From positions 78,227 through 142,226 of the forward strand of contig JARKPR010000035.1 in NCBI GenBank assembly GCA_029975165.1: a stretch of DNA of 64,000 nt, in the 5' to 3' direction. Made by a program: the position numbers and the translations under genes. The stretch comes from Selenomonadales bacterium. Lineage in GTDB: Bacteria; Bacillota; Negativicutes; Sporomusales; UBA7701. Positions within the stretch are counted from its first letter, which is position 1. Each line of letters begins with the position of its first letter. Under the pieces are notes generated by a model. The model was not told where the DNA came from, made no database searches, and saw only the letters and a list, made by a program, of their open reading frames with translations. Below are positions 8,261 through 60,403 of the stretch, piece by piece.

Positions 8261-8587
8261 ATCGTCAGCCTCCTTAAATATTGGCGTCGGCCATAGACCG
8301 AGAACCTTCCGCCATCCGGCCCTACTGGTAACCCCTTTTATAGTTTGCCGCTCATCCCCCTTCTTCCTCCTCCCATTTTCCCCTCGGTTCCCGCATTCGT
8401 GCGGCCTCGCCAGCATCATAAAACACGCGAGAATGAACGCCATTGCCATCGCAACCGCGGTTTTCATTCTCCGGCCACCGCCGGCGCGCCAAACCTGACT
8501 AAATCGGCGATACTCTTTCCAGCAAAAAATTGCTATAATTAACATCAGTTTTTATAACAGCTTTATAAACAACCTGGAGGGATAACG
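8261..8587. other. Divergent intergenic region with a kimA promoter candidate
   Basis: Divergent FAH/kimA spacer. A consensus TATAAT lies at 8534-8539 on the plus strand, 49 bp before the kimA start, with a poor -35. I looked for a c-di-AMP (ydaO-type) riboswitch because kimA often carries one, and could not recognise its conserved motifs here. Confidence 0.45.
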
Positions 8588-10432
8588 GTGCTGCGCGCCA
8601 TCAGGCGGCTGCTGATCGGCAGGCCGCTGCACAACAGAGACCTACCCCACGAAAAACTGCCCAAATGGAAAGCCCTCTCCATCTTCTCCTCCGACGCCCT
8701 CTCTTCCGTGGCCTACGGACCCGAGCAAGTCATGCTCACCCTCGCCCTCGTGCCGGTCGGCGTCGCCTATGGCTACATGGCCCCCGTCGTCCTCGCCGTT
8801 ACCCTCCTCCTCGCCATCGTCGTCCTCTCCTACGTCCAGGTCGCCCGGGCCAACCCCGGCGGTGGCGGCGCCTACGCCGTCGCCAAAAAGAACCTCGGCG
8901 AAATGCCCGCCCTCGTGGCCGCCGGCTCCGTCTTCGCCGACTACATCCTCACCGCCGCCGTCAGCGTCGCGGCCGGCACGGATGCCATCGTCTCCGCCTT
9001 CCCGGTCCTCATCGGCCACGAAGTCGTCCTCGACCTCGCCGTCCTCTTCGGCATCCTCATGCTCGTCAACCTGCGGGGCGTGCGCGAATCCTCCAACGCC
9101 TTCGTCCTGCCCACCTACGCCTTCCTGTTCGGCATGCTCGCCCTCATCGCCGCCGGCGTCTACCAGGCCTTCACCGCCGCCCCGCAGCTCGTGCCGGCCG
9201 CCTCGACCGCCCGCCAGCCCCTCGACCTGGCGCTCCTCTTCCTCGCCCTGCGCGCCTTCGCCAACGGCTGCAGCTCCATGACCGGCATCGAAGCCATCGC
9301 CGACAGCGTGCCGATGTTCAAAGACCCGGCGCCCGTCAACGCCGTCCGCACCACCTACTGGATGGCCGGCATCCTCGGCCTCATGCTCGTCGGCATCTCC
9401 TTCCTCATCATCCACCTCCACATCATGCCGGCCGAAAACGTCACCGCCCTCTCCCAGATCAGCGAACAAATCTTCGGCCGCACCATTCCCTACTACTACA
9501 TCCAGATAACCACCATGCTCGTCCTCTACCTTGCTGCCAACACCGCCTACAACGGCCTGCCCATCCTCCTGTCCATCGTCGCCCGCGACGGCTACATGCC
9601 GCGCTACCTCGCCACCCGCGGCGAGCGGCTCACCTACTCCAACGGCATCATCCTCATAACCGTCGCCGCCGCCATCCTCATCGTCGCCTACGGCGGCAAC
9701 ATCGAGCACCTCATCTCCCTCTACGCCATCGGCGTCTTCATCTCGTTCACCATCGCCCAGACCGGCATGGTCGTCCACTGGCAGCGGGAAAAGAGCCCCG
9801 GATGGCGGTTCAGAACCCTCCTCAACGCCCTCGGGGCCACAGCCACCGGCCTCGTCGTCGTCATCATCACCGTCGCCAAATTCCTCTACGGCGCCTGGAT
9901 GATCCTCATCTTCATCCCCCTGATGATAAAACTGTTCAAAAGCATCCGCGCCCACTACGACAAAGTCGCCGCCCAACTCAGCATCCCCGCCGGCTGCAAC
10001 GGCGAGCCGGAAGAAATCGGCCGGCACATCGTCATCGTGCCCGTATCCACCCCGACCCGCGTCGTCTACCGCACCCTCAAATACGCCAGAACCATCGGCG
10101 ACCAAGTAATCGCCGTCCACATCGCCGCCGGCGAAGACCAGGCCGCCGAGCAAAGGCTCAAGGAAAAATGGGCCTGTTGGCAGCCGGGCGTCGAACTCGT
10201 CATCCTCCACTCCCCTTACCGCCTCCTCATGCAGCCCCTCATCGCCTTCATCGAAAAGCAAGAACGGCGCAAAGCCCCCAACGACTACATCACCGTCGTC
10301 ATCCCCGAATTTGAAACCAGGAAATGGTGGCACCGCCTCCTCCACAACCAGACCGGCTGGATCCTCCACACCACCCTCGTCCTGCGGGAAAACGTCGTCG
10401 TCACCACCGTCCCTTATCATCTCAAAGATTAA
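8588..10432 (+). CDS. kimA: KimA-type potassium importer (APC superfamily)
   Basis: 614 residues, close to KimA/YdaO (about 607). Proton-coupled high-affinity K+ uptake in the inner membrane. Seen: the KWKALSIFSSDALSSVAYGPE N-terminus typical of the family, about 12 hydrophobic segments to residue 450, NPGGGGAYAVA in the unwound-helix region, then a soluble universal-stress-like C-terminal part from about residue 470. GTG start with TGGAGGGAT upstream. It lies convergent to a trkH-trkA operon, so two K+ uptake systems sit side by side. Confidence 0.85.
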   Translation: MLRAIRRLLIGRPLHNRDLPHEKLPKWKALSIFSSDALSSVAYGPEQVMLTLALVPVGVAYGYMAPVVLAVTLLLAIVVLSYVQVARANPGGGGAYAVAKKNLGEMPALVAAGSVFADYILTAAVSVAAGTDAIVSAFPVLIGHEVVLDLAVLFGILMLVNLRGVRESSNAFVLPTYAFLFGMLALIAAGVYQAFTAAPQLVPAASTARQPLDLALLFLALRAFANGCSSMTGIEAIADSVPMFKDPAPVNAVRTTYWMAGILGLMLVGISFLIIHLHIMPAENVTALSQISEQIFGRTIPYYYIQITTMLVLYLAANTAYNGLPILLSIVARDGYMPRYLATRGERLTYSNGIILITVAAAILIVAYGGNIEHLISLYAIGVFISFTIAQTGMVVHWQREKSPGWRFRTLLNALGATATGLVVVIITVAKFLYGAWMILIFIPLMIKLFKSIRAHYDKVAAQLSIPAGCNGEPEEIGRHIVIVPVSTPTRVVYRTLKYARTIGDQVIAVHIAAGEDQAAEQRLKEKWACWQPGVELVILHSPYRLLMQPLIAFIEKQERRKAPNDYITVVIPEFETRKWWHRLLHNQTGWILHTTLVLRENVVVTTVPYHLKD

Positions 10433-43333: not shown

Positions 43334-44812
43334 ATGAAATTAGCAGCGTACACAAAAATCTATCGACAGATACAAAAAGTTATTATCCTTCCTGTAGCAA
43401 CTGTTTTACTAGCACAAGGAGCGGTAGGGTATGCAGATCCCGTTGCGGTTGCACCGCCTGATGTTGAAAGTGTCCTGCGTGTCACTCCTCCAGACAAGGC
43501 GATAGTTCCCCGGGAGAATCCGAAAGTTGGTGCTACCCCTAACGAAAATCCACCAATTATTGGCGATATCATACTAATAAACAATTCTGGAATTAATGAT
43601 GCTGTTATCCGTCTTCAGATGGACGCTCTGAAACCGGGTGACTACATAACTGAAGCCAAGCTGGAGCGTTCCTTGCTATTGATCAATGACCTGGCGGGTG
43701 CCAGGGCTAAAATTACTCCGAAGCCGGGCAAAGAAGTCGGCACCATCGACTTGATTGTGGAGATAACACCGGTTAAGAAACTTGCTAATTTCGCACTTAG
43801 TATGAACAACGTCGGCAACGCAGAGTACGGTACTAATCAAATCGGTCTGGCGGGGGGCTTTAGCAACATTAGCGGAATTGGCGACAAGCTGTCTTTTAGA
43901 AGCATAACCACTGGTCAGGATTTGGGTGGCGCCATCTTGGTGTATCAAAGGCCGGGATTCACTTCGGGCAGTCAATTCATCTTCTATACGTTCAAACTTC
44001 GCTACACGCTCGGCGGACAACGTAGCTACCTTAATGCCTACGGCGCCGTCAATGGTATTCATGCCGGTTGGAACTACTACTTGCATCGGTCACGCGATTT
44101 CAACCTCCAATTTCAGTCAGGTTGGGAATACAAGCAACGGCAAGATACGATAAATCTGATTCATCAGGAAGCCGACAAAACAATGCATAACGTTATTGCC
44201 GGATTGGTTGGTGACAGCAATGATAGTTGGGCCGGCGGCGGTAATAACAGCTTTTCCATAATGTACAATAAGGGCCGATTAATTATGGATACCGGCTATG
44301 CGCAATACGCAGATACCCAATATCAAAGTGCGGGCGATTTTGATCGCTGGAAATATAGTTTTATTCGCCAGCAGTATATTGCCAAGCGACTTAGCGGAAC
44401 ATTCTCTTTTAACGGCCAATATACCGACAAAAACCTGGAGATATCCCAACAACTGGCTATGAGTGGAATTAATGGAGTACGAGCCTATCCCCAGGGTGAA
44501 GTGTCCGGTAACAAGGGGTGGCTGGCTAGATGTGAAGTAAAGTGGGCTATGACACCCAGCCAAAAAGGGCGAGAACAATGGCAACTTGTTGGTTTTTATG
44601 ATGCCGGTAAGGCGGAAATCAATGCGAAACCATGGCCTGGTGTTACCGATAACAGCATCTTTCTGCGCGGTACCGGTATCGGTATCAATTGGAATGATCC
44701 AGGCAAGAGGTCGATAAAAATCTCCTATGCTTGGAAGGTAGGGCATGTGCCGGCTAAATTCGCTACGAATGCCAAGGGCTATCTGTGGATACAGACAGTG
44801 AGCTACTTGTAG
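43334..44812 (+). CDS. Two-partner secretion outer-membrane pore (FhaC/ShlB family)
   Basis: 492 residues. Signal peptide at 1-34, Pro-rich linker to about 75, a POTRA-type region at about 76-155 (ITEAKLERSLLLINDLAGARA), then a beta-barrel of about 335 residues ending WIQTVSYL with a terminal aromatic-rich strand. GINGVRAYPQGEVSGNKGW is the conserved L6 region, VRGY being VRAY here. Only about one POTRA domain seems present, where FhaC has two. No TpsA exoprotein gene with a haemagglutination-type secretion domain lies next to it. Supports a diderm cell plan. Confidence 0.87.
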   Translation: MKLAAYTKIYRQIQKVIILPVATVLLAQGAVGYADPVAVAPPDVESVLRVTPPDKAIVPRENPKVGATPNENPPIIGDIILINNSGINDAVIRLQMDALKPGDYITEAKLERSLLLINDLAGARAKITPKPGKEVGTIDLIVEITPVKKLANFALSMNNVGNAEYGTNQIGLAGGFSNISGIGDKLSFRSITTGQDLGGAILVYQRPGFTSGSQFIFYTFKLRYTLGGQRSYLNAYGAVNGIHAGWNYYLHRSRDFNLQFQSGWEYKQRQDTINLIHQEADKTMHNVIAGLVGDSNDSWAGGGNNSFSIMYNKGRLIMDTGYAQYADTQYQSAGDFDRWKYSFIRQQYIAKRLSGTFSFNGQYTDKNLEISQQLAMSGINGVRAYPQGEVSGNKGWLARCEVKWAMTPSQKGREQWQLVGFYDAGKAEINAKPWPGVTDNSIFLRGTGIGINWNDPGKRSIKISYAWKVGHVPAKFATNAKGYLWIQTVSYL

Positions 44813-47280: not shown

Positions 47281-48320
47281 GGTTTGGGATCCTCAACCCC
47301 GCTTTACATCAGGGTTGAATGGACTTTACTTAAATTGATAATTTCGGCGAACCGAAAAAGAGAGTCTGCCAATTATCGAATGTATGCAATAAAAAAATGA
47401 TCTGGTGGACAGAGATTTATCCATTCGGTAACTAAAGATTTATTCCTTATTCAACAATTTATAAATCAGGAGATTCTTCAAAAATGCCATCCTCATTCTT
47501 CCTCTTTTGCCTTTCATTCCGCTGGTGGAATTAGAAAAGTGCATCAGTACACTGCGGTGCGAAATGGCTTTTCCAATTTGACCTTACCGATTTTTTTTAC
47601 GATGTTACCGAAATTGATGTGTATCAAGTTTTCAAAGCAATGGGATATCGAAATTTATTGTCTTTTGAACTCGCGAGGTTGTGTACAACTACCCGCCTAC
47701 CACGAGGCCAGAAACGACTTCTTTCACATAATGATGGGGGTTATGGCGATTTCCCATATTCTGAGAAATTTGGCGAGGTTGGTGTACTTCCACAAGGAGC
47801 ACCGACAAGTCCAATGTTAAGCAATTTAGCGTCGTTAAAACTAGATGAGTCTTTAAATAGTTTTGCTTTAGAACACGGGTTTGTATATACACGTTATGCT
47901 GATGATATTACTTTTTCTGCAAGTTATCTACCCAGAAGCCATAGCGTTCGTGATATTCAGAGAGCCATTATCAATATCATTAGGAGAGAAGGGTTCAAAA
48001 GGAGAGAAGGGTTCAAAGAAAATGAAAACAAATTACGTATTGCAGGGCCTGGGTCAAAAAAGGTTGTACTAGGGTTATTGATTGATGGCAGTGTACCTCG
48101 AATATCTGAGGAAATATACAAACGTATAGACCGTCATCTTTATGCATCTACAAAGTTTGGTTTAGTAGATACGGCAGCTCATGAAGGTTTTGATTCAGCT
48201 TTCGGATTTTACAATCATCTCTCGGGACTTATAGCTTTTATTAAGGATGTTGATTTTAAGCGATGGGAAGAATTTTCGACTCGCTTTAAAATAATACAAA
48301 CACCATGGAGGGATGGTTAA
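47281..48320 (+). pseudogene. Retron-type reverse transcriptase, decayed
   Basis: About 345 codons, the size of retron RTs. Seen in order: YRMYAIKK then an in-frame TGA (47398) followed by SGGQRFIHSVTKDLFLIQQF (motif 0-1), a frameshift near 47535, ASVHCGAKWLFQFDLTDFF (motif with first catalytic Asp), VLPQGAPTSPMLSNL, the catalytic YADD in RYADDITFSAS, KLRIAGPGSKKVVLGLLIDG (thumb). An 18-bp tandem duplication (47982-48017) inserts six residues. RNA-templated DNA synthesis is ruled out for the full protein unless the TGA and the frameshift are bypassed. Stays in the AT-rich island. Confidence 0.8.
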
Positions 48321-48763: not shown

Positions 48764-50203
48764 CTAGTTCGGTGCAGGCAAGGTCTTTATGTCTATTTTC
48801 CCGCTGAAATTGAGCGGCATCCGGTCGAGTTTGATGATGTATGAAGGAAGCATGTAATCCGGCAGGTGCTGCGCCAGCGATTTCAGCAGAGATTCCGCCG
48901 CAACACCGGGGTCGGCGACGATGTAGGTGCAGAGGAACTTGCTGCCCGCAGGATCGAGCCTGTCGACGACAACGGCTTCGTGAACACCGTCCTGCCGGAT
49001 GATGGCTTGCTCTATTTCGCCCAGTTCGACGCGGAAACCGCGGATTTTCACCTGATAATCGATCCGGCCGAGAAACTCCAGGTTGCCATCGGCAAGTTGC
49101 CTGCCGAGATCACCGGTACGGTACATCTTTTGCCCTGGTCGGAAGGGGTCGTCGACAAACTTTTCGGCGGTGAGCTCGGGCCGGTTGAGATAGCTGCGGG
49201 CATTGCCCGCACCGGCGATACATAGTTCGCCGGGTTCGCCGACCGGCTGACGCCGGCCGTTATTGTCCATGACATACACGGCGGTATTCCAAATCGGTTT
49301 GCCGATGGGAAAATTGTCGTATTGGCGGTCAACGGGAAAATCACTGGTGCATACCGTGTATTCCGTAGGCCCGTACGAATTGAGCACCTGATAGTTCCTC
49401 GGGGTGAAGCGTTTCAACGTGTCGCCGCTGATATCGAGAAGCCGCAGCGAGCGGTTGTCGAACAGCCGCATGAACATCTCGCCCAAGGGAGTGGTCAGGG
49501 AGGCGATCGTTATCTGATTGCGCTCGAAGAATTTGTTCAGGCCGCTGAGCCACTGGAGGAGCTTGTCCGGCACGATGTAGAGCGTGGCGCCGGCGATCAG
49601 GCAGGGGAAGATTTCGAGCACTGACGCATCGAACGTGAAGGAGACGCACTGGGCTTTGTGGTCGTCCGGCTGCAGGCCGTGGGAGGCTTTGTACCAGCAG
49701 CACATATTGAGCAATGATTGGTGTTCGATCATCACCCCTTTGGGGTTTCCGGTCGAGCCGGAGGTATATATGACATAGGCAAGGTCGTCCCTGGCCGGCT
49801 TTCGCCGTGAATCACCCGCCGGCCCGCTCCATGTCGCCGGGTCGTCCAGGCAAACCGCGCCGGCCGGCAGGCCGCCGCGGGCGGCATAAGTCTTGCTGGT
49901 CAGCAGCAGGGCGCATTTGGTGTCATCAAGGATGTAAAGCTGCCGTTCAGGAGGGTAGTGGGGATTTATGGGGACATAGGCGCCGCCGGCCTTCCAGATG
50001 GCCAGGACGGCTACGACCATTTCCACCGACCGTTCGATGAGGATGGCGACTAGGTCGCCATCCTTTACGCCTTTTGCGGCGAGCAGGCGCGCCAGCCTGT
50101 CGGCTCTGGTGTTCAGTTCCCGGTAACTGATGCTTCTGTCCCCGTCGACAATTGCCGGATGGTCGGGCGAAAGGCCGACCTGTTCCAGGAACAGATCCAG
50201 CAC
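48764..50203 (-). CDS. Stand-alone NRPS-type adenylation domain (possibly starting at 50340)
   Basis: 479 residues. Activates an amino or carboxylic acid as adenylate. Core motifs: YVIYTSGSTGNPKGV (A3), FDASV (A4), NSYGPTEYT (A5), GELCIAGAGNARSYLNRPELT (A6), YRTGDLGR (A7), GRIDYQVKIRGFRVELGEIE (A8), NFSGKIDIKTL (A10 with the catalytic Lys). GTG at 50203 has AGGAG upstream. However, ATG at 50340 with GGGAGTG would add 46 plausible residues, were it not for an A7 tract that puts it one base out of frame. Downstream of GNAT and carrier genes in one operon. Confidence 0.88.
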   Translation of the reverse strand: MLDLFLEQVGLSPDHPAIVDGDRSISYRELNTRADRLARLLAAKGVKDGDLVAILIERSVEMVVAVLAIWKAGGAYVPINPHYPPERQLYILDDTKCALLLTSKTYAARGGLPAGAVCLDDPATWSGPAGDSRRKPARDDLAYVIYTSGSTGNPKGVMIEHQSLLNMCCWYKASHGLQPDDHKAQCVSFTFDASVLEIFPCLIAGATLYIVPDKLLQWLSGLNKFFERNQITIASLTTPLGEMFMRLFDNRSLRLLDISGDTLKRFTPRNYQVLNSYGPTEYTVCTSDFPVDRQYDNFPIGKPIWNTAVYVMDNNGRRQPVGEPGELCIAGAGNARSYLNRPELTAEKFVDDPFRPGQKMYRTGDLGRQLADGNLEFLGRIDYQVKIRGFRVELGEIEQAIIRQDGVHEAVVVDRLDPAGSKFLCTYIVADPGVAAESLLKSLAQHLPDYMLPSYIIKLDRMPLNFSGKIDIKTLPAPN

Positions 50204-51787: not shown

Positions 51788-52231
51788 CTACACGTAAAAG
51801 GAGACGATGAAGTAATAGAACGCTATCGGTGTGCCATTGGCGATCACCTCATAACGGTACCAGCCCACCGCGGGGAAGAGCACTTGCCAGACGACGGGCT
51901 GGCTATATACGTAGCCATCGGTGGGAGCGCTGAAGGTGATGGGTTGGGTGGCTGTGATCACGGTGTTGGTGTCCATCTTGATGATGCGCATGGAGATATC
52001 GTATTTACCGGCGGTGCAGGTGACCTGATCCAGGGTTCGGAAGGCGATGGGTACGCCCATCGGCCCGGTAATTTTGGCGACGGTGCCGTCGGTTGTCGAT
52101 ACTTCCTCGGTGACCATTTTGAGGTTGGCGGCCATGTAGTGGCTTGTAGGGAGCGCCATTGGCGCCGCCAGAGCGGGGACGGTGAGGGACACAAGCACGA
52201 CGAGGGCCGCAAATAATTTGCCAATTTTCAC
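51788..52231 (-). CDS. Small secreted protein, unassigned
   Basis: 147 residues. Signal peptide at 1-22 (KIGKLFAALVVLVSLTVPALA), mature part rich in Thr/Val and aromatic residues, predicted beta (YDISMRIIKMDTNTVITAT; VGWYRYEVIANGTPIAFYYF). GTG with AGGAGG upstream; a longer frame from 52270 lacks support. No family recognised; an Ig-like or carbohydrate-binding fold is conceivable. It lies between the carrier-protein cluster and the repeat protein. Confidence 0.7.
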   Translation of the reverse strand: MKIGKLFAALVVLVSLTVPALAAPMALPTSHYMAANLKMVTEEVSTTDGTVAKITGPMGVPIAFRTLDQVTCTAGKYDISMRIIKMDTNTVITATQPITFSAPTDGYVYSQPVVWQVLFPAVGWYRYEVIANGTPIAFYYFIVSFYV

Positions 52232-52728
52232 GTTATCGCCTCCTATATGATGCTGCTTTCGTGATGCCATAGCAATTTTCCTCCATAAATTACAATTAAT
52301 GTAAAAATTATCCTAAAGGTGTAAAGCCGCGTCCCGTGAGCATTCCGGGGCATTTTTTAATTTTTTTGTTGCTAAAAACTTTACAATTGGAAATAATTAC
52401 CATAAAATGTAATTAAACCAAATATTTCCAATGAGATAATAATTATTATGGATTAAGTTCATAAAGTTTACCACATATGTATATATCTTGAAACGGGGAA
52501 TATCCTATGGGGTAATCTCCCTGTGGAGGCGGCTTTTGCCATGTCATCTGCACGGGGGAGGTTCCTGACAAGCGGTCGATCGCAGCCGGCGCGGGGGAAA
52601 CACGGTGCCGCCCGGCAGGCTGCGCGGGGAATACCAACTTATACACGTGGGGGGTGGCCATTTTTTTAATGTGACTCGCGCGTTTCAACCGGATATTCAA
52701 TCAAGGGAAAAATGGGAGGTCAAAACAA
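52232..52728. other. Long intergenic region before the exported repeat protein
   Basis: 52280-52480 is very AT-rich (poly-T and poly-A tracts). 52490-52660 is GC-rich and could fold extensively (for example GGAGGCGGC, GGGGGAGG, CGGCAGGCTGCGCGG). I tested the known riboswitch motifs I can recall and none fits. Likely holds the promoter and a structured leader for the repeat-protein gene. Confidence 0.4.
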
Positions 52729-53769
52729 ATGAAAAAACTCGCGATCCTTTGCATGGTCCTGATGCTCGTCGCCATGTGCGCCCCGGTGTTCGCCAACAGC
52801 GGTGACAGCAACCCCGCCACCTACGCTTCCGCCACCGTCAACAGCATCGGGGACAACAACCAAATCGGCATTCTTGGCGCTGGTGTATCTGGCTCCGTCG
52901 ACAACAACACGGCGAGAGCCATCAACGTGTCGATCGTCAACGGCTCCGCCGGCGCCCCGAGCAGCGGCAACAACATTACCGCCATCGGCGCCCAGGTGGT
53001 CGACAGCTATTACTGGAACACCGCCCAGATGGTTCCTACTAGCGGGAGCACTGCCGATGTCACCGCCACCAACCAGGCCCAAGGCCCCAACACTGTCACC
53101 GCTATCGGTGCCCAAGTCATCGGTTCCCACGACGTTAACACCGCTACCGTCCGCGGCGACGTTTCCGCTACCAACTCCGCCGGCACCGGCTATAACAGCG
53201 TCAGCGCAATCGGCGCTTCGGTCTACAACAGTGGTTACAACAACACTGCCCAGACCAACACTCAGTGGGGCACGGTCGAAGCCGTCAACAACGCCGGTAC
53301 CCACCATAACACTATTACCGCCGTCGGCGCCGCCATCGAAAACAGCGGCAGCGGCAACAACGCCTCCATCCAGTGCTACACCGTAGCCAACAACTGGGGC
53401 TGGGGCTCCGGCGGCTATAACAATCTCACCGCCCAAGGTGCCGTCATCATAGGCAGCGTCAATGGCAATACCGCCTTCGCCGGCCATTCGAGCGCCTACG
53501 TCGGCGTAGGCGCATGGGAAAACAACACCGTCGTCACCACCGGCGCGGCCATCGTAGGCAGCGGCTCCGGCAACACGGCCAGTTCCAACTACGCCGGCGC
53601 CAGTGTCTGGGGCAGCAATAACACCGTCACCGCCGTCGGTGCCCAGATCGTGAACAGCGGCTCCGGTAACACCGCCGCCGTCCTCGGTTGGCCTATCGGC
53701 GGCCAGACCAGCGTCAGCGTAACTGGCAGCGGAAACACCGTAACCGCCATCGGCGCCCAGGTAAAATAA
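52729..53769 (+). CDS. Exported 9-repeat protein (NTxTAIGAQV repeats)
   Basis: 346 residues. Signal peptide at 1-23 (MLVAMCAPVFA). The mature protein consists of nine repeats, each with a core like NTVTAIGAQVVGSGSGNTA, spaced 30-45 residues and separated by variable Thr/Ser/Asn-rich stretches. This is typical of beta-solenoid or amyloid-like surface proteins. The same core recurs at residues 43-64 of the autotransporter gene downstream. GGGAGGT precedes the ATG. 107 bp before the autotransporter, same strand. Not recognised as a named family; a partner or ligand of that adhesin is an inference. Confidence 0.8.
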   Translation: MKKLAILCMVLMLVAMCAPVFANSGDSNPATYASATVNSIGDNNQIGILGAGVSGSVDNNTARAINVSIVNGSAGAPSSGNNITAIGAQVVDSYYWNTAQMVPTSGSTADVTATNQAQGPNTVTAIGAQVIGSHDVNTATVRGDVSATNSAGTGYNSVSAIGASVYNSGYNNTAQTNTQWGTVEAVNNAGTHHNTITAVGAAIENSGSGNNASIQCYTVANNWGWGSGGYNNLTAQGAVIIGSVNGNTAFAGHSSAYVGVGAWENNTVVTTGAAIVGSGSGNTASSNYAGASVWGSNNTVTAVGAQIVNSGSGNTAAVLGWPIGGQTSVSVTGSGNTVTAIGAQVK

Positions 53770-53876
53770 GACTACAATGCTTAAGCCGCAGTGGCGGCGT
53801 TACCCTCCGCTGCCATTCCGACGGCGCGAACTATCTGAATCGCGCAAACTGACAAGAAAAGGAGGGGTAATCACCC

Positions 53877-54962
53877 GTGATAAGTAAATACGGCAAAGTC
53901 GTTTCCTTGCTCTGCGCACTCAGCCTGCTGCTCATTCCGGCAGGAGCGTTGGCCAGCAACAACAACGAGGCTACCGGCTCCGCCACCTCAGCCGTCAGCG
54001 GCAATGGCGTTACGGCCACCAGTATCGGCGCATCTGTACAGGACAGCGACAATAGCGTGGCGATCGGCAACAGCTTCCAGTTCGTGAATGTTGGCGAAGG
54101 CGGCCCCGTCTCAGTGGAGAACTACGGCGCGCTGTCGATCGCCGGTATGGGCAACACCGCCATCGGGGCCAACGCCCAGTGGGCCGAGGGTTCCGGCCTG
54201 AAAGCCATCGGCTACGGAGCGGTGGCCGGCTACGGCAACAACAACGTAGCCATTGGCAACTATGCCTATGCGGGCGGCGTACTCAATGGACCTAAAAGCA
54301 GCGAGAACACCGCGCTGGGAGCGTATGCACAGGCTTATGGCGGCGGCAGCGTTGCCCTGGGCGCCGGCTCGATCGCCAACCAGCCATACACCGTCTCGGT
54401 TGGCCAGCCTGGCTACGAACGGCGTATCACCAATGTGGCGCCGGGTGTCTACGGCACCGACGCGGTCAACATGAACCAACTGTGGGACACCCACGACAAA
54501 ATCAACCGCCTCGGGGCCACGGCCATGGCGTTGGGCGCTTTGGCTCCCATGGGCTATAACCCCAAAGAGCCCACCCAGTACACGGCCGGTATCGGCACCT
54601 ACGGTGGCCAGACGGGCTTTGCGCTGGGACTGTATCACTACACTAAGGAAAACGTCATGATCAACGCGGCCATCGGCATGAGCAGCGACGGCTGGGAAAA
54701 AGCCGGTCGGGCCGGCATAACCTGGATGGGCGGCGGCTCCAGGAAAACCAGGAAGGAAGAGCCGGTCAAGACGGTATTCGCCAGCAACATGCAGACCGCG
54801 CAGCCTGCCGATGGCAAGCCCGCGGCCGGCCGCGAGGGGAACATCCAGGATCGCGTGACCAAGCTCCTCGGCAACACCTCGGTCCAGGCGGAAGAGAAAA
54901 AACCTGCCTCCGTGACTGAAGGCGGCATCGTCGACCGGGTGAATAAGTTGCTAAAAGAGTGA
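53877..54962 (+). CDS. Trimeric autotransporter adhesin (YadA type) with C-terminal extension
   Basis: 361 residues. Signal peptide at 1-26; head repeats at about 40-170 of the YadA/Hep_Hag type (NTAIGANAQWAEGSGLKAIG; NTALGAYAQAYGGGSVALGA); neck ERRITNVAPG at 181-190 with GTDAVNMNQL; membrane anchor at about 205-283 (LGATAMALGALAPMG; GYRAGITW-like GRAGITW end). Normally the protein ends at this last strand. Here 78 residues follow, basic first (SRKTRKEEPVK), with two related motifs, IQDRVTKLLG at 323 and IVDRVNKLLK at 351. These would face the periplasm. GTG start with AAAGGAGGGG. Confidence 0.88.
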   Translation: MISKYGKVVSLLCALSLLLIPAGALASNNNEATGSATSAVSGNGVTATSIGASVQDSDNSVAIGNSFQFVNVGEGGPVSVENYGALSIAGMGNTAIGANAQWAEGSGLKAIGYGAVAGYGNNNVAIGNYAYAGGVLNGPKSSENTALGAYAQAYGGGSVALGAGSIANQPYTVSVGQPGYERRITNVAPGVYGTDAVNMNQLWDTHDKINRLGATAMALGALAPMGYNPKEPTQYTAGIGTYGGQTGFALGLYHYTKENVMINAAIGMSSDGWEKAGRAGITWMGGGSRKTRKEEPVKTVFASNMQTAQPADGKPAAGREGNIQDRVTKLLGNTSVQAEEKKPASVTEGGIVDRVNKLLKE

Positions 54963-55491: not shown

Positions 55492-56409
55492 TCAATGATC
55501 TTCCGCAGTTGGTGTTGTGGCGCTTGTGGCATTGCGACGATCGTTCAATTCAGTCATGAATTTAATGAAGGCTTGGGAGGCCCTGGATAAGTACTTGTCT
55601 TTTTTCCAGGCCAGGCCAAATTCGATGTGCAATGTTTCGGCGAGAGGTATGCCTGCGAAGTCTTTATTCTTGAAAGCGATCGTTTCAATCAGAAAGCAAA
55701 TGCCTATCCCTTTGGCTACGAGACCTTTCATGGTCTCGATCTGATCGGACGTCAGAATGATATTCGGGGTAAAGCCGTATTCCTTGCATTGTTCGAGGAT
55801 GAGTTTGCGATGATACGAGCTTTCCTTGAAAAGAATAAACGGTTCGCCCTTCAGCTCGGCCAAAGATACTGTGGCATTGCCTGCCAAAGGGTGATTCAGC
55901 GGCAGGCAGGCGGCAATCCTCTCTTTGGTGATCGGCAGGGATTCAAGGAGCGGCGAGGGATGATAGAGGTTGACAATCCCCAGGTCGAGCTCGCCCCGTT
56001 CCAATAATTGGCGGATATCGAAGGAGCCTTCCTCGACAATGGAGAGTTGCAAATTGGGGTAAAGTTCCTTGAAGCCGGCCAATATTTCGGGTAACAGAAC
56101 CGAGCTGGGCATTGGGGGGATGCCTACTTTGATGGTGCCTTTTTGCAGTTGACGGTAACTGTTTATTTCAGCGACGGCATCGTGCAGCAGATTCAGAACA
56201 TCGGATATTTTATGCAAAAAGACATGACCTTCGGCGGTCAATGAAAGCTGTTTCTGGCTGCGGTCGAAAAGCTGGATGTCCAGTTCGTCCTCCAGTTTCT
56301 GGATGGCCAACGTGACGGTTGATTGCGATACGTGCATTTGTTCGGCGGCTCGCGTGATGTTGTTCAGTTTTGCAACCATCTGGAAATATTCCAATTGTCG
56401 TAAGTCCAT
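55492..56409 (-). CDS. LysR-family transcription regulator
   Basis: 305 residues. N-terminal winged helix (LRQLEYFQMVAKLNNITRAA; MHVSQSTVTLAIQKLEDEL) and a C-terminal periplasmic-binding-like effector domain at about 92-295 (GTIKVGIPPMPSSVLLPEIL). ATG with GGAGGT upstream. Divergent from the cyclase-TctCBA-cupin-SDR operon starting at 56605, so most likely its regulator, with the inducer being the transported acid or an intermediate. Confidence 0.9.
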   Translation of the reverse strand: MDLRQLEYFQMVAKLNNITRAAEQMHVSQSTVTLAIQKLEDELDIQLFDRSQKQLSLTAEGHVFLHKISDVLNLLHDAVAEINSYRQLQKGTIKVGIPPMPSSVLLPEILAGFKELYPNLQLSIVEEGSFDIRQLLERGELDLGIVNLYHPSPLLESLPITKERIAACLPLNHPLAGNATVSLAELKGEPFILFKESSYHRKLILEQCKEYGFTPNIILTSDQIETMKGLVAKGIGICFLIETIAFKNKDFAGIPLAETLHIEFGLAWKKDKYLSRASQAFIKFMTELNDRRNATSATTPTAEDH

Positions 56410-56604
56410 AAATACCTCCGGGCAACCATTGGTTAAATTAATTATAACATTATGAATATATATTTTTTTTTATAGCAATTAAAAGTTATATTTTAGTTGG
56501 ATGATATTATTGAGTCATCGCCCGCAAAATAAGTGTTTCAGCTGTCAGGATGGTCATTGGGGGCGCCGTCCTTCGACAACATTTTGTAACTGGGGTGTGG
56601 TTAA
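56410..56604. promoter_or_regulatory. LysR/operon divergent control region
   Basis: 195 bp, very AT-rich in the middle. AACCATTGGTT at 56424-56434 is a small palindrome. ATAACATTATGAATAT near 56442 has T-N11-A character. These are candidate LysR sites; a strong -35/-10 was not found. Confidence 0.4.
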
Positions 56605-57273
56605 ATGCAGGAGATCATCGATTTGACTCTGCCGGTGAAAAAACACTGGCGATGGATGTTCAGCCGGACGACCGACCGCGATTATACGAGCGGCGGGCCG
56701 CTTAGGGAAGAAGTGGTGTATATGACGGTGCACAGCTTCACCCATATCGACCCGCCCTCCCACGCTTTCGCCGGCCGGCAGACCATCGATCAGGTTCCGC
56801 TCGCCGATCTTATCGGGACGGCCAAGATCCTCGATTTGTCGGCCAAAGAAGCCAACGCCGAAATTACCGGCGACGACCTCGAACGGACCGGCGTGCCTGT
56901 CGAACGCGGCGATATTGTCGTCGTCAAGACGTGCCAGGGCCGGAAGCAGAGCCTGGATACCGCGGAGTTCTGGACCACGTCGCCGTTTATGGCGGAGTCG
57001 GCGGGGCAGTGGCTGATCGACAAGGGCATCAAGGCGGCGGCGTTCGATTTTCCGCAGGATTATACCCTCAGACGGTTCTTTCTGGGCGACATCCCCGCCT
57101 TGGAGGAGATGACCATGCACAAGATGCTGCTGGGGGCGGGGATCATCCAGATAGAGTATATCACCAACACCCATCTGCTTACAGAGGACAGTATCCCTTT
57201 TTTCGCGATCCCTTTACGGCTGGAAGGTGCTTCGGGGTCGGCTGCGCGGGTATTTGCCATCCGCCGGCGCTGA
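56605..57273 (+). CDS. Cyclase family protein (kynurenine formamidase-like)
   Basis: 222 residues. Metal-dependent hydrolase; the HSFTHIDPPSH motif fits the HxGTHxDxPxH metal site with Phe in place of Gly. Other blocks: IIDLTLPVKKHWRW at the N-terminus, GIKAAAFDFPQDYTLRRFF, NTHLLTEDSIPFFAIPLRLEG near the end. ATG with GGGGTG nearby. First gene of a probable catabolic operon, 47 bp before tctC. The substrate may be a cyclic amide, lactone or arylformamide. Confidence 0.87.
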   Translation: MQEIIDLTLPVKKHWRWMFSRTTDRDYTSGGPLREEVVYMTVHSFTHIDPPSHAFAGRQTIDQVPLADLIGTAKILDLSAKEANAEITGDDLERTGVPVERGDIVVVKTCQGRKQSLDTAEFWTTSPFMAESAGQWLIDKGIKAAAFDFPQDYTLRRFFLGDIPALEEMTMHKMLLGAGIIQIEYITNTHLLTEDSIPFFAIPLRLEGASGSAARVFAIRRR

Positions 57274-57320
57274 ACTCGATTTGAAAATAAGTGCCTAGAA
57301 AACGAGAGGAGTTGTTAGGA

Positions 57321-58352
57321 ATGAGTAAGCGAAAGGCCTGGATCACCGTCGCCGTGGTGTTCTGTATGGCGGCAGCCTTGCTGCTCGGCGGCTGCGGCAA
57401 AGACAGCCAGGCGGAAAAATGGCCCACCCGGCCGATCACGATTGTTATCGGTTTTGCTCCGGGCGGCGGCATGGATGTCATGGCGCGGGCGCTGGCGCCG
57501 GAGATGGCCAAGAAGCTCGGCGTCGAGGTGGTTGTCCAGAATATGCCGGGCGCCGGCAGCGGGACGGCGGCCGATTATCTGATCAAGCAGCCGGCCGACG
57601 GGTATACGATCTTCGCGCCCAGCAGCGCGGTGGCAACTTTCCCGGCCATGGCCAATTCCAGTGTTACCAGTAAGCAGATGGGCATGCTGGCGATCCCGAT
57701 CATCGCCGAGCCCACGTTCCTGGTGCCCAAGGATTCGCCGCTGAAAGACATGAACGACCTGATCGCCCTGTGGAAGAAAGGCGGCTCGACGGCTTCCAAC
57801 ACCGGCGCGGGCGGCCTGTGGCACATTCCCCAGGTGCTGGCGGTCGGCGCCGTCGGCGGCAACGTGAAGTATGTCCCGTATCCCAGCGGCAAGGACACGG
57901 CGTTCGCCGTCGTCAAGGGCGAGGTCGACTGGGGCACCAGCGGCGCGCTGATGGAAGCCGGCGCGTTTATCAAGGACGGCCTTGTCCGCCCGCTGGCGAT
58001 TTTCTCCGATAAACCGTATCCGATGCCGGGCTACGGCGATATCCCGCCGATCACCAATTATATTCCCGCGCTAAAGGATAAGATTGTCGCCGGCGCCGGC
58101 TGGCGCGGCCTTGCCTACAAGAAGGGCATCCCGCAAGACAGGCTGGACAAGCTGCAGGAAGCCGTGAAGTACGCGTGCGAGTCGGAGAGCTTCAAAAAGA
58201 TGGTGAAGGAGAGCGGGCTGATATCGGCCAGCTATTACGGCGCCGATGCCGACAAGGTGTATGAGCAGACCATGCGCGTCCAGTCGTGGCTGTTGCACGA
58301 TTTGAAGATTTCCCGCCGTTCTCCGGAGGAAGTGGGCGTAGCCAGGCCTTGA
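57321..58352 (+). CDS. TctC-type solute-binding lipoprotein (Bug family)
   Basis: 343 residues. Signal with lipobox LLLGGCGKDS, then WPTRPITIVIGFAPGGGMDV, the family start motif, and MPGAGSGTAADYLIKQPADG. Binds an organic acid in the periplasm for the tripartite tricarboxylate transporter. ATG at 57321 chosen with GAGAGGAG upstream; a longer frame at 57291 has none. 35 bp before tctB. Confidence 0.92.
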   Translation: MSKRKAWITVAVVFCMAAALLLGGCGKDSQAEKWPTRPITIVIGFAPGGGMDVMARALAPEMAKKLGVEVVVQNMPGAGSGTAADYLIKQPADGYTIFAPSSAVATFPAMANSSVTSKQMGMLAIPIIAEPTFLVPKDSPLKDMNDLIALWKKGGSTASNTGAGGLWHIPQVLAVGAVGGNVKYVPYPSGKDTAFAVVKGEVDWGTSGALMEAGAFIKDGLVRPLAIFSDKPYPMPGYGDIPPITNYIPALKDKIVAGAGWRGLAYKKGIPQDRLDKLQEAVKYACESESFKKMVKESGLISASYYGADADKVYEQTMRVQSWLLHDLKISRRSPEEVGVARP

Positions 58353-58387
58353 TGAAACTTGCTTCGGCAAGGTAGGGAGATATTCGC

Positions 58388-58864
58388 ATGAAACTGACGC
58401 GCAATGACAAAGAGGTAATAGTCGGTTTTGTTCTCACCATCCTCGGGTTATACCTCATCCATTCGGCGCTGTCTATCAAGCAGGAAGCGGTCTTTATGGA
58501 GGGTGCCGGGGCGTTCCCGCTGATCGTGACGGTATTGTTCACCCTTTTCGCCGTGGCTCACCTGGTCGTCAGCCTTGTCAAAGGCGGGCGCCCGGATGGG
58601 GGCAAGCTGGCCGGTTCGTTCCGGGCGATGCTCAAAAACGCCGAGTTCCGGGAAGTTATGCTGGCGATCGGCGTCGTGTCCCTCTACATTTTCGTGGGCG
58701 TTACCTTCTTCGGCATCTACCTGACGGGAGCAATCCTGATGCTGGGCATCCTGTGGGGATTCGTCCCGCGGATGAAAAAGGTGGTAACATTAGTGGCGAC
58801 CGGGGCGGTAATCGCGACATTGTATTTGACGTTCACCGTGCTGTTCCGGTTGCCGATCTATTGA
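58388..58864 (+). CDS. TctB-type small membrane subunit
   Basis: 158 residues, four helices (VIVGFVLTILGLYLIHSAL; FPLIVTVLFTLFAVAHLVVS; VMLAIGVVSLYIFVGVTFFG; VTLVATGAVIATLYLTFTVL). GGGAGAT upstream. Small subunit of the tripartite tricarboxylate transporter, between tctC and tctA. Confidence 0.88.
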   Translation: MKLTRNDKEVIVGFVLTILGLYLIHSALSIKQEAVFMEGAGAFPLIVTVLFTLFAVAHLVVSLVKGGRPDGGKLAGSFRAMLKNAEFREVMLAIGVVSLYIFVGVTFFGIYLTGAILMLGILWGFVPRMKKVVTLVATGAVIATLYLTFTVLFRLPIY

Positions 58865-58900
58865 CCGGGGCAACGCTTGTGCGGTCTGGGAGATGAGCAA

Positions 58901-60403
58901 ATGGATATCGTTGCCAAAATATTCCTGGAAGTATTTTCGCCTTACGGATTGTTCCTGATTGTCACCGGGGTGGCCATCGGCATCGTAGGCGGCGCCCTGC
59001 CCGGCATTTCCTCGACGATGACGGTGGCGCTCGTGGCTACTTTTACTTTGTCGATGGACCCCTTCTGGGCTATCACCTTCCTGGCGGCCACCCAGGTGGG
59101 CAGCACTTACGGCGGCAGCATATCGGCCGTGGTGCTGAATATCCCCGGCACGCCGGCCTCGGCGCCGACGGCGATCGAGGGCTACGAGCTGGCCAAGAAG
59201 GGCGAGGCGGAGAAGACGCTCAGCGTGAATGTCATCTCGTCTTTCTGGGGCAATACCATCGGCGTGGTTTTGTTGCTGCTTGTCATGCCGGTCATGCTGA
59301 AGCTGGCGATGATCTTCGGGCCGTGGGAGCTCTTCTGGTTCGCGATGTTCGGGTTGATGATCTGCGCCAAGCTGTCGCGGGCGAATTTCCTCAAGGGCCT
59401 GATGGCGGCTTGTTTCGGGCTGCTGCTGTCGATGGTGGGCACCGACCCCATCTGGGGGGTGCCGCGGTTCACGTACGGCAGCACGTACCTGATGGACGGC
59501 ATCGGCCTGATCCCGGCGATGGTCGGCCTGTTCGGCATGGCGGAGGTTTTTTCGAGCCTCAAGGATTGCGGCTATGGCCAGATCCAGTTGAAGGGGGCCA
59601 GCCTGTTCCAGTTCGGCGAATGGGTCAGATACAAGTGGACGTCGTTGCGGGCGTCCGTTCTCGGGTTCCTTATCGGCGTAATACCGGGCGTCGGGGCCAA
59701 CATCGCCTGCTGGGTGGGCTACGATCACGCCTATTCGTCGAGCAAGGAAAAGGAGAAGTTCGGTACCGGTACTATCGAGGGGCTGGTGGGTTCGGAATCG
59801 GCCAATAACGCCTGCGTGCCGGGCGCCTTCGCGCCGCTTTTATCGCTGGGGGTTCCCGGCGATTCGGTAACGGCCGTGGTTTTGGGGATTTTGACCCTCC
59901 ACGGCGTGCAGGTCGGGCCGACCTTCCTCAATACCAACCCGCAATACCTGTACCACCTGGCTATGGCCATGTTTTTCGCGGGCGCCATCTTCCTGTTCGT
60001 CGGCACTTTTGTCGGCCGCGGCATCGTCAAGGTGCTGGCCGCCCCCCTGCCGGCGATCATGGCGGTGGTCATCCTGCTGTGCGTGATCGGCACTTACGCG
60101 GTAAACTTCCAGGTCATGGACGTGTACGTGATGTTCGCCTTCGGTCTTCTCGGCCTGGCCATGCGGGAGTTCAAGTTCCCGTCGGCGCCGCTCATCCTCG
60201 GCATCGTGCTGGGGGGCGAGCTGGCCGACGGCAACTTCCGCCGGGCGCTGATGGCCGGCAAGGGCAGTTTCGAGCCCTTTTTCACCAGGCCGATTTCGGC
60301 GGTCCTGATCGCCATCTTGATTCTGATCATCTTTATGGAATTCGCCTGGCCGCCGCTGAAGGCGTATCTGAAGAAGAGGCAAAAGGCCGGCAACGACGCC
60401 TGA
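58901..60403 (+). CDS. TctA-type large membrane subunit
   Basis: 500 residues, about 12 helices. Family features: GGALPGISSTMTVALVATFT, TYGGSISAVVLNIPGTPASA, GVIPGVGANIACWVGYDHAY and GVPGDSVTAVVLGILTLHG. Forms the Na+- or proton-driven channel with TctB. ATG at 58901 with GGGAG upstream; the ATG-like start at 58877 gives eight extra residues without support. Confidence 0.95.
   Translation: MDIVAKIFLEVFSPYGLFLIVTGVAIGIVGGALPGISSTMTVALVATFTLSMDPFWAITFLAATQVGSTYGGSISAVVLNIPGTPASAPTAIEGYELAKKGEAEKTLSVNVISSFWGNTIGVVLLLLVMPVMLKLAMIFGPWELFWFAMFGLMICAKLSRANFLKGLMAACFGLLLSMVGTDPIWGVPRFTYGSTYLMDGIGLIPAMVGLFGMAEVFSSLKDCGYGQIQLKGASLFQFGEWVRYKWTSLRASVLGFLIGVIPGVGANIACWVGYDHAYSSSKEKEKFGTGTIEGLVGSESANNACVPGAFAPLLSLGVPGDSVTAVVLGILTLHGVQVGPTFLNTNPQYLYHLAMAMFFAGAIFLFVGTFVGRGIVKVLAAPLPAIMAVVILLCVIGTYAVNFQVMDVYVMFAFGLLGLAMREFKFPSAPLILGIVLGGELADGNFRRALMAGKGSFEPFFTRPISAVLIAILILIIFMEFAWPPLKAYLKKRQKAGNDA

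Follow-up and report, generated by a model that had tools for sequence, protein, structure and literature searches.

The window (the whole 64,000-nucleotide stretch analysed here, from contig JARKPR010000035.1 of a Selenomonadales bacterium) encodes a trimeric autotransporter adhesin with a tail beyond its membrane anchor, an anchorless repeat protein and a small DUF6941-like protein, and this trio is found together in the window and in seven related genomes. We propose tentatively, at somewhat short of even chances, that the three genes form a conserved surface module comprising a tail-moored adhesin, repeat subunits that would stack on its head, and a DUF6941-like helper. The adhesin and repeat-protein frames lie where a preliminary description of this DNA had placed them (Table 1). 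The pair of genes that it singled out stands, and the third gene, on the opposite strand, had been overlooked.

The adhesin combines the features by which type Vc autotransporters are recognized, namely a YadA-like head, a coiled stalk, and a YadA-type anchor. Its anchor scores 37.7 bits against PF03895 (YadA_anchor, Pfam cut-off 22.7) and its stalk 38.6 bits against PF05662 (YadA_stalk, cut-off 28.4); the head repeat remains under the Pfam cut-off (17 versus 25 bits). Fold matches of the predicted structure, an AlphaFold2 model of a single chain, are to YadA-like heads and to the anchors of Hia, YadA, and AtaA. The adhesin would form a surface homotrimer, carrying three tails and six copies of a tail motif. 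The chain does not stop at the barrel, as it classically does in type Vc: 78 residues follow W283, with a net charge of +4 and two copies of the motif IxDRVxKLL; the length and the paired motif are as had been described.

This tail had been considered exceptional on the premise that YadA-type proteins stop at the last barrel strand. The premise fails for Negativicutes, in which tails beyond the YadA anchor are usual and already known, also from published adhesins; the tail of the window adhesin is real and conserved, but a tail after the anchor is not unheard of (available excerpts of PMC5491611 and PMC7549365). An anchor profile was built from 43 proteins among the 45 closest homologues. Measured with it, 44 of these 45 proteins extend 33-163 residues beyond the barrel, and the window tail is therefore not a frame error. 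The exception, P0045, has 0 residues there and a garbled barrel end. Of the 75 more distant homologues listed, 64 could be aligned with the anchor profile; 0-10 residues remain beyond it in 63 proteins, and 61 residues in the other. An initial set of 30 loci from class genomes contains 34 adhesin frames, all of them tailed (25-192 residues), including one in G051 that reaches the contig end. A further set comprised 30 loci, one per genome; when 250 genomes were searched, the anchor family was present in 133, and these 30 are among them. Here, 30 of 31 adhesin frames are tailed and the remaining frame runs off its locus; the tail lengths in this set count from the alignment end and may include some barrel residues, and the G051 gene sits in both sets. 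Because the class frames read to a stop codon carry a tail, tails are the rule in Negativicutes adhesins.

In Veillonella as well as in other Negativicutes, excerpts of published work place SLH domains or coiled coils in such tails. Three Veillonella parvula adhesins have SLH domains beyond the anchor (Poppleton 2017, PMC5491611), and every trimeric autotransporter of that species is reported to have either SLH or a coiled coil at this position (Bechon 2020, PMC7549365); the excerpts of the latter propose that SLH tails reach the wall and state the role of the coiled-coil tails as unknown. In our own scan, Pfam SLH was found behind the anchor in three of the six class members tested (L057, L066, and L067) and was absent from the window tail at E-values up to 0.1. 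The window tail is different from SLH and, in its predicted model, from the long coil of other class members. As a side observation, the 192-residue adhesin tail of L023 (G054:C6) is SLH-like by eye, with no Pfam SLH at E-values up to 0.001.

The motif itself is confined to one adhesin family. Its regular expression, in a loose form written after the tails had been read, matches 33 of the 44 nearest tails, and the strict form 19, against 0.01 expected in shuffled tails; the last copy lies 2-9 residues from the chain end in the matching tails, and two copies per tail are present in the window, P0004, P0005, and P0020, among others. The expression has no match in the 13,152 residues preceding the tails and none in the 75 more distant proteins. 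A 20-column motif profile identified 11 sites in 8 genomes, all within these adhesins, and no other protein below an E-value of 0.2 in those genomes. When 380 class genomes were scanned, the motif reached E <= 0.001 in the same 8 only and nowhere outside these adhesins. Of the 8 genomes, 7 (all except G002) had contributed tails to the profile, which makes the matches there partly circular; given this overlap between source and matched genomes, the absence of the motif elsewhere is the main information.

A tree was calculated for 99 anchors from 90 columns and leaves many forks unresolved; in it, this adhesin type forms one branch of 48 rows with a support of 99/97. Of the 48 rows, 41 match the motif once its form is relaxed further, and the motif-free row of G046 splits off first within the branch. 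In the AlphaFold2 model of the window adhesin, both motif copies are predicted to be helical (13 and 10 residues), and the linkers between the anchor, copy 1, and copy 2 are long and of low confidence. With nine residues, the motif is a peptide small enough for a direct partner test. Other short tail motifs were also observed. A GSRLLK-type motif, not detected by the IxDRVxKLL profile, is present in a second adhesin of the same genome (L027, L075; G000:C42) and its relatives L010, L028, and L030. Similarly, P0018 and P0026, from the same clade as the motif-bearing adhesins, carry an ESLFMQTLKKH-like motif, in several copies in P0026.

The protein encoded upstream of the adhesin is probably exported, as judged by eye from its signal-peptide-like sequence. 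Nine repeats had been claimed for it, which is a fair count: we find eight full GAx[VI]xxS...NxA motifs, 32-40 residues apart, and a cut terminal copy. It contains 10 GA.[VI] sites, compared with 1.2 in shuffles (the highest of 5000 shuffles has 6). A motif common to this protein and the adhesin head, also noticed earlier, is indeed present (GASVQDSDNSVAIG, from residue 51). The AlphaFold2 model is all beta, with a mean predicted local distance difference test score of 84 and a predicted template modeling score of 0.86, and the protein is predicted to fold as a beta-solenoid. No Pfam family was matched at E-values up to 0.1, and a PDB sequence search with the repeat profiles returned antibody-like weak matches (E-values of 0.13 or worse) or none. 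The best VIA-align row for the model, among the matches listed, is a CsgA. A YadA head is absent from the best 50 of 229 Foldseek rows and from the 50 VIA-align rows listed, from which we draw no conclusion.

Repeat proteins of this kind fall into two sequence types, which are linked at 98.6% in a profile-profile comparison with hhalign, signal peptides included. The window protein belongs to type 1. The divergent repeat protein of G013 matches the type-2 profile at an E-value of 2.4e-6 with its first 32 residues removed, and the type-1 protein P0121 matches it at 0.003. For comparisons with adhesin heads, the first 32 residues of the repeat proteins or 35 of the heads were cut away. At E<1e-3, the type-2 profile then matches the heads of 22 of the 45 nearest adhesins (best 4e-17); at this threshold it matches none of the 64 heads from distant proteins, nor any head in reversed form (best reversed 0.076). 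Across the 250 genomes, there are five full-length type-2 matches, each adjoining such an adhesin; the remaining matches are frames that also contain the adhesin anchor, except for one signal-peptide match in G003. A weak A3 match in G003 (C17) was rejected as a repeat protein, since the protein concerned is barrel-like and has a signal peptide that is similar.

To describe gene order, nine clade loci from six genera were read (the window, G001, G002, G004, G012, G013, G040, G046, and G055); two distant loci from the scan of genome contigs were not used. In all nine, a repeat protein of 308-385 residues with a signal-peptide-like start is encoded directly upstream of the adhesin, and the pairing first noted in the window thus recurs elsewhere. 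Neither of the outcomes named beforehand as refuting the earlier description, a tail missing from every orthologue or a lack of co-occurrence of the two genes in other genomes, was observed. A DUF6941-like gene accompanies the pair in eight of the nine loci. It follows the adhesin gene on the same strand in G040, G055, G012, and G013, and it is divergent from the repeat gene in G001, G002, G004, and the window, where 458 bases separate the two.

The DUF6941-like protein of the window is 43-49% identical to two relatives, and its real start is possibly about 10 codons further downstream in the frame. It scores 16.4 bits against PF22091 (DUF6941; E-value 0.012), below the cut-off of 27, which is passed by four of the five relatives tested. 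A profile built from the window protein and six others matches it at an E-value of 3.7e-57, the profile including the protein itself. With this profile, matches were found in 11 of the 250 genomes: the 8 with the module, G033, G045, and G061. The matches in G045 and G061 are weaker (5e-11 and 1e-17), and both genomes have no YadA-anchor match. In G033, the DUF6941-like gene (L107:7917-8372) lies 26 bases from the gene of an adhesin with a coil-like tail (8399-10246), and no repeat gene was seen upstream. A PDB search with the profile gave one weak match, and the term DUF6941 appears in no paper of the literature searched. The protein is likely exported and likely assists the adhesin or the repeat protein. 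Among the neighbors scanned, none has a peptidoglycan-binding Pfam domain; an unlinked partner was not sought.

Stem-loops lie between the repeat and adhesin genes, with z <= -3 in seven of the nine clade loci and a weaker one in G055 (z -1.75); the adhesin start that delimits these intervals is our choice in each locus. Such intergenic stem-loops often yield more of the upstream product. Given their position between the two genes, the repeat protein would be produced in excess over the adhesin, as would be fitting for a subunit relative to its anchor.

In the module that we propose, the adhesin barrel would be inserted in the outer membrane, with the head outside and three tails in the periplasm. 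The last barrel strand of YadA and Hia finishes on the inner side of the membrane, which is why the tail would be on the periplasmic side. Each chain would have one or two short tail helices, and these may act as pegs that dock it to the wall or to a periplasmic partner; such binding would take the place of the SLH domain or long coil that other adhesins in the class have. This interpretation draws on the SLH domains, known elsewhere to bind the wall, and the coils that occupy the same place in sister adhesins, and on AtaA of Acinetobacter sp. Tol 5, which TpgA, a protein that binds peptidoglycan, reinforces from below (excerpts of PMC13082670). The repeat protein, putatively in excess over its adhesin anchor, would cross the outer membrane and then stack end-to-end on the adhesin head outside the cell, and the DUF6941-like protein would act as a helper of one or the other. 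To our knowledge, type Vc adhesins carry their entire passenger on one chain, a rule that would be broken if the repeat protein does join the adhesin. The linked anchorless solenoid is the more surprising half of the find; the tail motif bears on how outer-membrane adhesins of diderm Firmicutes withstand pulling.

Several observations weigh against this proposal. The kinship between the free repeat protein and the adhesin head is firm for the type found in relatives and only suggestive for the window pair, because the type-2 profile matches heads and the type-1 profile, that of the window protein, matches none at E<1e-3 (best 0.002); moreover, where the window-type profile matches the alignment of the adhesins, the signal peptide is part of the match. 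The model of the repeat protein has no significant PDB match with Foldseek. G046 has the gene pair with neither the tail motif nor a DUF6941-like match. The tail helices are only modestly amphipathic, with moments of 0.52 and 0.67 in the window, values reached by 6.7% and 3.4% of shuffles, respectively, and by up to 33% in relatives. The stem-loop of the window is weak (z -1.6). Finally, no export pore is linked to the loci of the trio, and each kind of pore is missing from one module genome, the CsgG-like pore from G012 (88% complete) and the ShlB-like pore from G001.

Candidate export routes were considered individually. CsgG-like genes occur widely in the order, in 20 of 28 genomes, with no linkage to the module; the sole CsgG-family match in the genome of the window is on another contig, C17, with no curli genes beside it by eye. 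ShlB-type pores occur in 53 of 60 genomes and none was matched in the module genome G001, and on both grounds two-partner secretion was rejected as the route of the repeat protein. The window itself contains a ShlB/FhaC-family two-partner-secretion pore 8 kb upstream of the repeat gene (43334-44812, +), and no partner exoprotein was recognized by eye among the adjoining frames of at least 120 residues.

The tail could also function with no partner. The helices of the three chains would then bundle and lock the barrel from below, as a shrunken counterpart of the long coiled coils found in other adhesins of the class. Most other class tails look coiled-coil-like by eye, and the I-V-L spacing of the motif fits heptad core positions; however, the long low-confidence linkers among the anchor and the two copies are odd for a clamp, and the strictness with which the motif is conserved exceeds the needs of a coil. 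We regard such a lock as rather unlikely. The repeat protein might, alternatively, remain in the periplasm and, while the adhesin is being exported, act as a chaperone of its head or imitate it. Its signal-peptide-like start, yet with neither an anchor nor a linked outer-membrane pore, and its kinship to heads agree with this possibility, but its solenoid, which looks stable and spans about 320 residues, is unlike the periplasmic chaperones known for autotransporters, and we consider a periplasmic role unlikely. That nothing joins the genes, the adhesin being a class-typical tailed protein beside a duplicated and decaying head fragment, appears very improbable. Tails after the anchor are usual in the class, and head repeats duplicate readily; against this, the upstream gene is intact, with a signal-peptide-like start, in nine of nine loci from six genera, and the tail motif persists across the clade.

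Curli offer a further comparison. In that system, CsgA is the subunit, CsgB the surface-held nucleator, and CsgG the pore. The trio resembles it in that an anchorless subunit, predicted to be a solenoid, is encoded beside a surface-held protein with related repeats, and differs in having a type Vc adhesin as this surface-held protein and no linked CsgG. Membership of the repeat protein in curli was rejected, as no Curlin family match was obtained with Pfam at E-values up to 0.1 and the CsgG-like genes are common and unlinked. It seems quite unlikely that the adhesin head nucleates an amyloid-type fiber into which the repeat protein polymerizes, the DUF6941-like protein serving in its assembly. 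The most elaborate version of our proposal, a form of curli on a trimeric autotransporter, is one we hold to be quite unlikely as a whole: the adhesin, moored by a new periplasmic docking peptide, would seed a surface filament of excess anchorless, head-like solenoids, with the DUF6941-like protein as a periplasmic assembly factor.

The tail-moored module that we favor is comparable to other adhesin systems. SadA-SadB of enterobacteria is similar in combining a trimeric autotransporter with a small helper encoded beside it; SadB is a trimeric lipoprotein, and by this description it differs from the DUF6941-like helper candidate. In AtaA-TpgA, according to excerpts of PMC13082670, a separate protein that binds peptidoglycan makes up the periplasmic part, whereas in the window the tail is on the adhesin itself. 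The adhesins of V. parvula, a member of the same class, share with that of the window an additional C-terminal portion beyond the YadA anchor, which would be periplasmic (excerpts of PMC5491611 and PMC7549365). The window tail differs from theirs in having no Pfam SLH and, in its predicted model, two short motif copies in flexible linkers in place of the long coil, and the window also has the linked genes for the anchorless repeat protein and the DUF6941-like protein. According to excerpts of PMC13082670, a 2026 preprint reports auxiliary proteins as well as C-terminal extensions into the periplasm across many lineages, and it may already include the tail motif described here. No paper on the trio or the motif was found in the literature searched, which did not cover most subscription papers or bioRxiv preprints.

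Table 1. Features of the three-gene locus (positions refer to the window).
Feature	Position	Strand	Remarks
Small DUF6941-like protein	51788-52270	-	Signal-peptide-like start; divergent from repeat gene
Repeat protein, 346 residues	52729..53769	+	Signal-peptide-like start; no outer-membrane anchor found
Array of repeats (GAx[VI]xxS...NxA), eight full and a cut ninth	52876..53766	+	
Intergenic stretch with weak stem-loop (stronger ones at this place in relatives)	53770..53876	+	
YadA-type trimeric autotransporter, 361 residues, GTG start	53877..54962	+	Pfam stalk and anchor; fold matches
Adhesin head, about residues 30-182	53964..54422	+	YadA-like beta-roll in model
Adhesin stalk, residues 183-212	54423..54512	+	PF05662
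Adhesin anchor, residues 227-283	54555..54725	+	PF03895
Adhesin C-terminal tail, residues 284-361	54726..54959	+	Putatively on periplasmic side
Tail motif copy 1, IQDRVTKLL, residues 323-331	54843..54869	+	Predicted helix 323-335
Tail motif copy 2, IVDRVNKLL, residues 351-359	54927..54953	+	Predicted helix 351-360

Other genes were recognized around the trio. Upstream, a frame at 47619-48320 (+) has a YADD motif and is reverse-transcriptase-like by eye, and 48764-50203 (-) encodes an AMP-binding, adenylation-type enzyme including the C-terminal domain. Downstream, the region 55492-60403 contains a LysR regulator (-), followed by a cyclase-family protein (+) and TctC, TctB, and TctA (+), which represent a tripartite tricarboxylate transporter.
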